Source of the DNA: Pontibacter arcticus
GTDB lineage: Bacteria > Bacteroidota > Bacteroidia > Cytophagales > Hymenobacteraceae
Assembly: GCF_003284895.1 (NCBI RefSeq)
Contig: NZ_QMDV01000002.1
Span: 1 to 64,000, forward strand
DNA: 64,000 nt
Direction: 5' to 3'
Numbering within the stretch: the first letter of the stretch is position 1; every line of letters starts with the position of its first letter. The notes below the pieces were generated by a model. The model was not told where the DNA came from. It did not search any database and saw only the letters and a list, made by a program, of their open reading frames with translations. Below, one piece after another: positions 42,444 through 56,652 of this stretch. Both the position numbers and the translations under genes were made by a program.

Positions 42444-42513
42444 TTTAGCGATAAACTAAGCAAAAGCGAATAAAATATTTTTAGCGAATTTTCGCTAAAA
42501 ATATTTTATTCGC
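42444..42513. promoter_or_regulatory. Operator region of the regulator-aceBA divergon, with a 48-bp inverted repeat
   Basis: A perfect inverted repeat has 23-bp arms (42466-42488 and 42491-42513) separated by TT. The arms begin with GCGAATAAAATATTTTTAGC and the core of the dyad is TTTAGCGAA-TT-TTCGCTAAA. A further TTTAGCGA lies at 42444-42451 and an AAAAGCGAA at 42462-42470. Position between the divergent regulator and aceB genes makes it a likely binding site for the regulator. The hairpin potential could also affect the aceB leader. Confidence 0.8.
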
Positions 42514-55273: not shown

Positions 55274-56026
55274 ATGACGGAAGAGCTAACCGACCCCCGA
55301 CCAACCACCAGAATTGCAGCCGTAGGCGATATCCACGTACGCGAAAACGACCAGGGTAAATGGGAAGAGTTTTTCAGGCAGGCATCGCAACAGGCCGATA
55401 TACTTTTGCTGTGCGGCGACCTGACCGACACTGGCCGAATTGCCGAAGCCGAAATACTGGTAAAAGAACTGAAAGCCTGTACCATACCAATTGTAGCCGT
55501 GCTGGGTAACCACGATTTTGAGCGCGATAACCAGAAAACCATCCGCAAAATGCTGATCCAGGAAAATGTGCACATGCTGGATGGCGACCACATTGTGATC
55601 GGAAATGTTGGGTTTGCCGGCGTGAAAGGATTTGGTGGTGGTTTTGACCAGGGTATGCTGGGTATGTTCGGCGAAAAGATGATCAAGAATTTTGTGCAGG
55701 AAGCCGTAGACGAATCCCTCAAACTCGATGGCGCGCTGGCCCGATTGGATGGTGAGTATACCGATATCAAGAAGATCGTGCTGCTGCATTATGCACCTAT
55801 CAAAGCAACCGTAGTAGGCGAGCCCGAGCAGATTTTTCCATATTTAGGATCTTCCCGTTTGGCAGAACCTATTAACCGCCGCGATGTGGTAGCCGCTTTT
55901 CATGGGCACGCGCACATTGGTACTTTGCATGGCGAAACCTCCAGGGGCGTGAAAATATTTAATGTATCGCGGCCTATACTTTTGCGCGACGGCTACGAAA
56001 CCGGTTTTTATATTTTTGAAGTATAA
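55274..56026 (+). CDS. Metallophosphoesterase (calcineurin-like)
   Basis: The 250-residue protein has all five metallophosphoesterase motifs: AAVGDIHVRENDQG, LLLCGDLTDTGR, VAVLGNHDFER, VLLHYAPIKATV and AFHGHAHIGT. It would bind two metal ions and cleave phosphate esters. The substrate is unknown; cyclic nucleotides, nucleic-acid ends or phosphoproteins are all possible. It follows the nucleotidyltransferase gene by 3 bp and is the last gene of the operon, with a terminator 20 bases downstream. Confidence 0.93.
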   Translation: MTEELTDPRPTTRIAAVGDIHVRENDQGKWEEFFRQASQQADILLLCGDLTDTGRIAEAEILVKELKACTIPIVAVLGNHDFERDNQKTIRKMLIQENVHMLDGDHIVIGNVGFAGVKGFGGGFDQGMLGMFGEKMIKNFVQEAVDESLKLDGALARLDGEYTDIKKIVLLHYAPIKATVVGEPEQIFPYLGSSRLAEPINRRDVVAAFHGHAHIGTLHGETSRGVKIFNVSRPILLRDGYETGFYIFEV

Positions 56027-56044
56027 ACCTATACTATACATGAT

Positions 56045-56086
56045 AAAACGGGTAGCAGATGTAAGATTTGCTGCCCGTTTTTTTTA
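56045..56086 (+). terminator. Terminator after the metallophosphoesterase gene
   Basis: A stem of about 16 bp with two G-U pairs (56045-56060 with 56066-56081) is followed by a T-run. Confidence 0.85.
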
Positions 56087-56150
56087 AGAATTGTTCATAC
56101 TTTAACGCTTTTTAGCGTTTTAAATAAAATTGTTTTGCTGCCCTTGCTGC

Positions 56151-56233
56151 GTGTTTTCACCAGCAAATCCTGGCTAACCCGCCATTGTCGGTGAAAACAC
56201 CAACAATGGCGGGTTAGCCAGGATTTGCTGCTC
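56151..56233. repeat. Large perfect hairpin with a repeated 19-bp core
   Basis: Two 28-bp arms (56161-56188 and 56203-56230) are perfectly complementary. They enclose a 14-nt loop that itself contains GGTG-AAAA-CACC, so the whole structure folds as one near-continuous hairpin of about 70 nt with a single mismatch. The 19-mer at 56188-56206 is identical to the copy at 10707-10725. Just outside the left arm, GTGTTTTCAC (56151-56160) is the inverse of the loop sequence GTGAAAACAC. No T-run follows closely and a terminator already lies upstream. Confidence 0.85.
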
Positions 56234-56310
56234 GTTTTTGTTTGAGACTTGTTTATACTTTGTAATTCAGAACCGGCATCTTAATTTCACTTCTGATTAA
56301 ACAAGAATGT

Positions 56311-56652
56311 ATGGTAACAATATTTCATAATGCGATGTGCAGCAAAAGTCGCGGCACCCTAGACCTTATCCGGAATGCGAACGAAGAAGTGCAGGTAATA
56401 GAGTACCTGAAAACACCCCCTACCAAAGCGGAACTTACTGGTATACTAGCCAAACTTAACCTGAAACCCCAGGAACTGATCCGGAAAGGGGAGAAGGTGT
56501 ACAAGGAAAACTATGCCGGCCAAACTCTGACAGATGAAGAGTGGCTAGACGCAATGGTGCAACACCCCGCCCTGATCGAGCGGCCTATTGTGGTTAAAGG
56601 TGATAAAGCTGTGATCGGGAGGCCACCCGAGAATGTATTATCCATACTTTAA
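56311..56652 (+). CDS. arsC: ArsC family (glutaredoxin-type) reductase
   Basis: The 113-residue thioredoxin-fold protein has the ArsC active-site loop FHNAMCSKSRGTLDLI with Cys10, the segment YLKTPPTKAELTGILAKLNL and the C-terminal RPIVVKGDKAVIGRPPENVL with the conserved Arg-Pro pair. Enzymes of this type reduce arsenate with glutathione and glutaredoxin, while close relatives (YffB/Spx-like) do other jobs. No arsR or efflux gene is present nearby, so an arsenic role is uncertain. It is a single gene. Confidence 0.9.
   Translation: MVTIFHNAMCSKSRGTLDLIRNANEEVQVIEYLKTPPTKAELTGILAKLNLKPQELIRKGEKVYKENYAGQTLTDEEWLDAMVQHPALIERPIVVKGDKAVIGRPPENVLSIL

Follow-up and report, generated by a model that had tools for sequence, protein, structure and literature searches.

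A probable decayed REP-pair copy with a perfect 28-bp stem between a metallophosphoesterase gene and an arsC-like gene of Pontibacter arcticus

The hairpin and its locus

The window, i.e., the whole stretch of 64,000 nucleotides of Pontibacter arcticus DNA that was analysed, carries a long hairpin between a metallophosphoesterase gene and an arsC-like gene (Table 1). The initial annotation had described a perfect 28-bp stem at 56151-56233, a loop with pairing of its own and an outer sequence that inverts the loop. The arms are indeed complementary at 28/28 positions, the 14-nt loop pairs within itself as GGTG AAAA CACC, and GTGTTTTCAC at 56151-56160 is the reverse complement of that loop. Among the perfect inverted repeats of the window (64 kb, loop 3-60 nt) this stem is the longest, the runner-up having 22 bp with a 4-nt loop at 42466-42513. 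The predicted RNA fold of 56130-56260 reached -69.6 kcal/mol, whereas shuffles averaged -31.4 (z -10.8, with 0/200 shuffles as good), and the DNA fold of 56140-56233 gave a z of -14.6. No Rfam family matched at gathering score; 29 sub-threshold matches up to E 1, from 7 sources and mostly microRNA precursors, leaders and small RNAs, were taken as hairpin artefacts.

Table 1. Features at the locus, in window coordinates
Feature	Position	Strand	Basis
Metallophosphoesterase gene, upstream neighbour outside the element	55274..56026	+	Pfam Metallophos, 58.8 bits
Left flanking direct repeat: terminator of the metallophosphoesterase gene plus TTTATACTTT-like tail	56049..56103	+	alignment with 56210-56261
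Outer left segment, related to GAAGCTGTTTAGCGTTTT... of other copies	56104..56139	+	by eye against another copy (L017)
Left REP-like hairpin: outer foot GCCC, stem TTGCTG/CAGCAA, centre GTG TTTT CAC	56140..56166	+	by-eye family alignment, 17-mer census
Left arm of the 28-bp perfect stem	56161..56188	+	28/28 complementary
Linker, 17 nt, exact reverse complement of part of the right arm	56167..56183	+	
Right REP-like hairpin, inverted relative to the left, outer foot GGC	56184..56210	-	outer-foot counts, by-eye family alignment
Right arm of the 28-bp perfect stem	56203..56230	+	28/28 complementary
Right flanking direct repeat: diverged copy of the same terminator region, T-run from 56235	56210..56261	+	alignment with 56049-56103
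arsC-like gene, downstream neighbour outside the element	56311..56652	+	NCBIfam TIGR00014, 136.8 bits, exceeds cut-off

It had also been stated that a terminator lies about 65 bp upstream of 56151 and that no T-run follows the hairpin. The upstream terminator is there, with a stem starting at 56049 and a T-run reaching about 56085, but the second part is inexact, as a T-rich tract, TTTTTGTTT, begins at 56235 after CTCG. It belongs, as T-run, to a second and diverged copy of the terminator: the two flanking repeats align with a score of 30.5, against a maximum of 15.5 among 1,985 random pairs of the same spacing. A terminator scanner found zero sites in 55900-56400 and missed the known upstream terminator too, the loop of which exceeds the length that the scanner allows, so its result is not decisive on terminators.

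The best named match of a 794-aa protein from the neighbourhood comes from Pontibacter sp. 172403-2, with 70% identity. The metallophosphoesterase gene was found in 46/50 genomes of the genus (own genome included). Among 30 loci read, own included, arsC lies downstream of it in the own genome and at three others (L131, L137 and L138), a tally that leaves out the downstream stretches of minus-strand loci, where further arsC hits are possible. No REP word (at most 1 mismatch) occurs between the two genes at these three loci, and L137 shows by eye one terminator-like stem ahead of TTTATACTTT. The intergenic DNA is too diverged to align, and thus none of the three is a true empty site.

A dispersed family of inverted pairs and a RAYT-like gene

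The initial annotation gave three possible readings, namely mobile miniature element, REP-like hairpin and RNA, and pointed to a genome search for the hairpin sequence. The sequence turned out to be neither single-copy nor without relatives: in the own genome (3.77 Mb, 7 contigs) the query 56140-56245 gave at least 55 matches, opposite-strand duplicates included, from which at least 39 further places were taken, both being lower bounds because 40/78 candidates were scored. The part common to the family is about query positions 1-76, and the long stem lies outside it. The 17-mer GTGTTTTCACCAGCAAG (at most 3 mismatches, right-hand hairpins counted in) has 127 genomic occurrences, compared with 9 of its reversed word; for the 11-mer GTGTTTTCACC the corresponding figures are 99 and 5. 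The 61 stretches considered, i.e., the window slice and 60 fetched ones, yielded 51 inverted pairs and 14 left-only hits; the strict pattern applied gave no pair in three stretches (L188, L193 and L195) despite BLAST matches.

Each pair consists of a left hairpin, a linker and a right hairpin, the latter typically TTGTcGGTG AAAA CACCaACAA with the outer foot GGC. Among the 51 pairs, the outer foot is GCCC on the left in 45 and GGC on the right in 40, and the linker measures 21 nt in 34. Since the opposite strand of the right hairpin reads as a REP like the left one, the two REPs of a pair are inverted, and the second GTGTTTTCAC-type sequence in the window is accounted for as the loop of the pair's second, inverted REP. 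Because the two centres are complementary, a pair can fold either as two hairpins or as one longer hairpin; predicted DNA folds gave two hairpins for one copy (L010) and one longer hairpin for two others (L017 and L030). In the place of the canonical GT[AG]G tetranucleotide, dispersed copies most often show ATAG on the right (31/51) and GTGC on the left (20/51). Of the 51 pairs, 33 show an outer inverted repeat of about 18 nt on the left and 25 show it on the right; 23 have it at both ends and 16 at neither. The right-hand count is inflated, as the reversed-word control gave 2 on the left and 11 on the right.

The REP-pair family favours the 3′ ends of genes. With mechanical ORF calls, 0/51 pairs lie inside an ORF of at least 100 aa, one (L191) reaching 34 nt into a predicted ORF, and the pairs fall between convergent genes in 24 cases, tandem genes in 25 and divergent genes in 2; the intergenic bases of the window, for comparison, amount to 849 convergent, 4330 tandem and 1448 divergent.

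A RAYT-like transposase, which the initial annotation had proposed to look for, is present, with the same hairpins adjoining it in the own genome and at loci across the genus. Five places in the own genome resemble Y1_Tnp, four of them above the Pfam cut-off; the fifth, C1:1021205-1021723 (172 aa), has family hairpins 412 and 300 nt upstream. No family hairpins were found in the stretches fetched around the other four, save one single-mismatch 11-mer in L061. The protein from C1:1021205-1021723 scored 66.6 bits against NCBIfam REP_Tyr_transpos (E 2.2e-18), below the curated cut-off of 80, and 19.5 against Pfam Y1_Tnp, below the cut-off of 23; a sequence search of the PDB gave no match up to E 1. 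In 9 aligned homologues the HUH motif NHLH (NHIH in the sole sequence from another family), YIH[NQ]NP and SS are conserved.

Close homologues of this RAYT (72-79% identity) occur in seven relatives of the same genus, one of which (G036) has two, among 59 genomes with the own included; broken or fragmentary copies occur in four (G007, G019, G023 and G025). Family hairpins lie within 412 nt, on one or both sides, at 8/8 intact RAYT loci of the genus, counted as one per genome with the own included; this set leaves out a ninth intact gene, on contig C11 of G036, for which a repeat is listed about 20 nt away. Of the broken loci, two (L119 and L121) have hairpins and one (L116) has none, the G025 fragment being outside the comparison. 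The foot GT[AG]G is present at 9/23 RAYT-side hairpins. The word that marks the family hairpins was absent from all eight more distant loci searched (L117, L120 and L122-L127).

At one locus from another family (L118), the RAYT homologue is flanked by a hairpin of another type, GTGTCAGGTGTTATCACCTGACAC or close to it, which has the related centre GGTGTTATCACC. Its five copies extend as far as 845 nt on the upstream and 145 nt on the downstream side of the match, as if RAYT and repeat change together.

The close RAYT, remnants counted, was found in 11/18 repeat-positive but 0/18 repeat-negative relatives of the genus (Fisher p 1e-4; p 8e-4 without the repeats at the RAYT itself), a test that overstates the association because the genomes are related. 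Repeats in relatives were scored on the best 13 or fewer matches per genome, and their counts are thus lower bounds. The link is not one to one, as seven repeat-positive genomes have no close RAYT (G006, G013, G021, G026, G027, G028 and G032); two of these nevertheless hold 43 (G027) and 30 (G006) copies of the 11-mer. Loss of the RAYT gene is one reading of these seven genomes. Together, the multicopy family and the hairpins beside the RAYT-like gene support the earlier suggestion of a mobile miniature element or REP-like hairpin.

A separate observation concerns the 9-mer AAGTATAAA, present in 70 copies in the window where 0.76 were expected, and near the hairpin at, e.g., 56019-56027 (+) and 56252-56260 (-). 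Of these copies, 31/70 fall outside ORFs; 10% of the window is free of ORFs. The word occurs 3,679 times genome-wide, against 42 for the reversed word; in 50 genomes of the genus it reaches at least 1,000 copies in 23 and 84 to 572 in the other 27. The core AAGTATA, which also terminates many REP linkers, has 32 copies against 2.2 expected in positions 1-22325 of L053 (Pontibacter sp. 172403-2). We presume that AAGTATAAA may be an uptake-signal-like or HIP1-like word; a literature search on it found no paper.

The perfect stem and the flanking repeats

The 28-bp perfect stem is a later change in the window copy, not a trait of the family. Elsewhere, the longest perfect stem within an element is at most 12 bp, except for 17 bp in one pair (L178), and a 21-bp perfect stem in L183 belongs to a terminator beside the element. 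In the window copy alone, reverse-complementing the right flank gives the linker exactly, and no other copy's linker matches these 17 nt over their length. From CGGGTTAGC on, the right flank aligns with the upstream terminator copy; the right side therefore seems to have arisen separately and to have served as the source from which the left was rewritten. One template switch during replication would suffice to produce the perfect stem, to judge from a single present-day sequence. GGCTAAC of the rewritten linker is also found in other linkers, an overlap that a simple right-to-left switch leaves to chance. This overlap, and the likeness of CAGCAA in the left arm to family sequence, would fit copying in the reverse direction, i.e., of the right arm from the left. 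We regard that direction as unlikely, however, because the right arm from CGGGTTAGC matches the upstream terminator copy and hence has a separate origin, and because the linker is 17 nt long instead of the usual 21 and over its full length is unlike that of any other copy.

Direct repeats also adjoin other members of the family. A first test on 39 elements (1/40 had no recognised right end) prompted a criterion for flush repeats, fixed after the first cases had been seen: a score of at least 20, with the right copy starting at most 12 nt and the left copy ending at most 60 nt from the core. By this criterion, 8/51 own pairs have flush direct repeats against 84/2550 cross pairs (3.3%; binomial 2.5e-4), and in five other genomes 3/39 pairs against 9/1482 cross pairs (0.6%; binomial 1.7e-3), the latter set comprising the 39/40 stretches with a pair (L256 was dropped). 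At a score of at least 24, the counts were 5/51 own pairs against 2.2% of cross pairs, with 0/1314 and 0/1568 at random points of the window, and 2/39 pairs in the other genomes, one of which (L242) is not flush. The cross-pair control preserves composition, not locality, and own-genome cross pairs reach a score of 37, above the 35.5 of the best true pair. The window copy, L173 and L179 each have an entire terminator in duplicate; with L194 and L196 they make up the best flush-repeat loci.

These flush repeats fit a duplication of the target upon insertion and are suggestive of it, but they are not proof. It may instead be that the terminators were doubled before the element arrived, or by later recombination, and this we consider a substantial possibility, if somewhat short of even. 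In its favour, the criterion finds no flush repeat at 43/51 own and 36/39 other pairs, three alignments among the eleven positive ones (L207, L216 and L243) are long and gappy, no empty site was found, and Y1 transposition of IS200/IS605 is described as proceeding without larger target duplications (PMC2817692). Against it stand the excess over cross-paired controls in two separate sets, the excess over random points of the window, and the fact that the repeats adjoin the element on both sides. A literature search covering titles and the beginnings of abstracts, mostly outside subscription journals, found no description of REPs in Pontibacter or of target duplication by REPs.

Interpretation and comparison with known systems

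Taken together, the feature is likely to be a decayed and rearranged copy of a REP pair (BIME/REPIN-like), the family of which is probably mobilised in trans by the RAYT-like HUH/Y1 transposase at C1:1021205-1021723. By analogy with the known family, the RAYT would bind the single-stranded hairpins and cut beside them, and would insert the pair elsewhere, mostly at gene 3′ ends. In the window, insertion beside the terminator of the metallophosphoesterase gene would have left two copies of a target of about 50 bp. A later single template switch, with the right flank (REP tail and terminator copy) as template, would then have rewritten the linker and turned an imperfect palindrome into the perfect 28-bp stem. 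The window copy has probably lost its mobility, since one arm of its left REP now lies within the long stem. At the RNA level, it would be at most a passive 3′-end hairpin between the two genes.

The same hairpin might have been selected at this locus as a strong terminator or stabiliser of an mRNA 3′ end, its relation to the repeats being incidental. Its place between two genes and downstream of a terminator, the T-rich tract after the stem, the very stable RNA fold and the preference of the family for gene 3′ ends would all suit such a role. However, a terminator is already present upstream, and the core belongs to a family that has many copies and a cognate RAYT, so the repeat origin is not incidental, making selection of this kind very unlikely. 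An origin as a MITE of a DDE transposon, with an incidental REP-like core, would explain the outer inverted repeats on both sides of 23/51 pairs. Yet the conserved part is the core and not the outer repeat, which 16/51 pairs lack altogether and for which the right-hand control is high, and core hairpins adjoin the RAYT; we therefore hold a MITE to be highly improbable. With the REP-pair reading preferred, a tentative generalisation, which we think rather more apt to fail than to hold, is that REP pairs of this Bacteroidota RAYT family enter next to intrinsic terminators by replicative insertion, which, unlike the transposition of IS200/IS605, duplicates about 30-55 bp of target, and that the doubled hairpins may seed template switches leading to long perfect palindromes.

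Although elements of this kind are known, some copies look as if they had duplicated the adjoining gene-end signal, a possible clue to how such repeats spread, a process described as poorly understood (PMC8266576). A family that keeps flush direct target repeats at some copies would make the insertion step readable from sequence, and the window copy illustrates a way in which a mobile hairpin could turn into a long perfect palindrome. In E. coli, quasipalindromes are known to be perfected by template switching (PMC7202029), and such switching has been proposed as a source of RNA stems (PMC8794818). The E. coli mutation and the proposed event in the window copy share an imperfect inverted repeat that is perfected in one step, with one arm copied from the other; they differ in that the event in the window is deduced from one present-day sequence.

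The family belongs to the known REP/BIME-RAYT kind, with the canonical GT[AG]G foot only partly present: its members are multicopy, extragenic and paired in inverted orientation, and the RAYT-like gene has repeats of the family around it. It resembles the proteobacterial REP/BIME (REPIN) and RAYT/TnpAREP systems (PMC2817692, PMC3116915 and PMC3733652) in that its palindromes are short, extragenic, repeated many times and arranged as inverted pairs, that they also adjoin a RAYT gene, and that repeat and RAYT co-occur. It differs from the proteobacterial REP/BIME in its constant outer foot, GCC/GGC, GT[AG]G being only partial, in the flush target-like repeats that adjoin some copies, and in having fewer copies than the >100 per genome called usual in PMC2817692.

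The closest described group, to which the own RAYT may belong, is TnpAREP subclass 2.6, equivalent to RAYT group 5, of the Bacteroidetes (PMC6006769). The two have in common the Bacteroidetes host, NH[LIV]H, YIH[QN]NP, SS after the core, and atypical structures around the gene that recur at other genomic places. The differences are WE in the own RAYT and its homologues (WK in L117) where the subclass table gives WQ, and a length of 172 aa against 179. With the Pontibacter family, the Bacteroidota, for which PMC6006769 records atypical flanking structures, gain a clear RAYT-REP pair.
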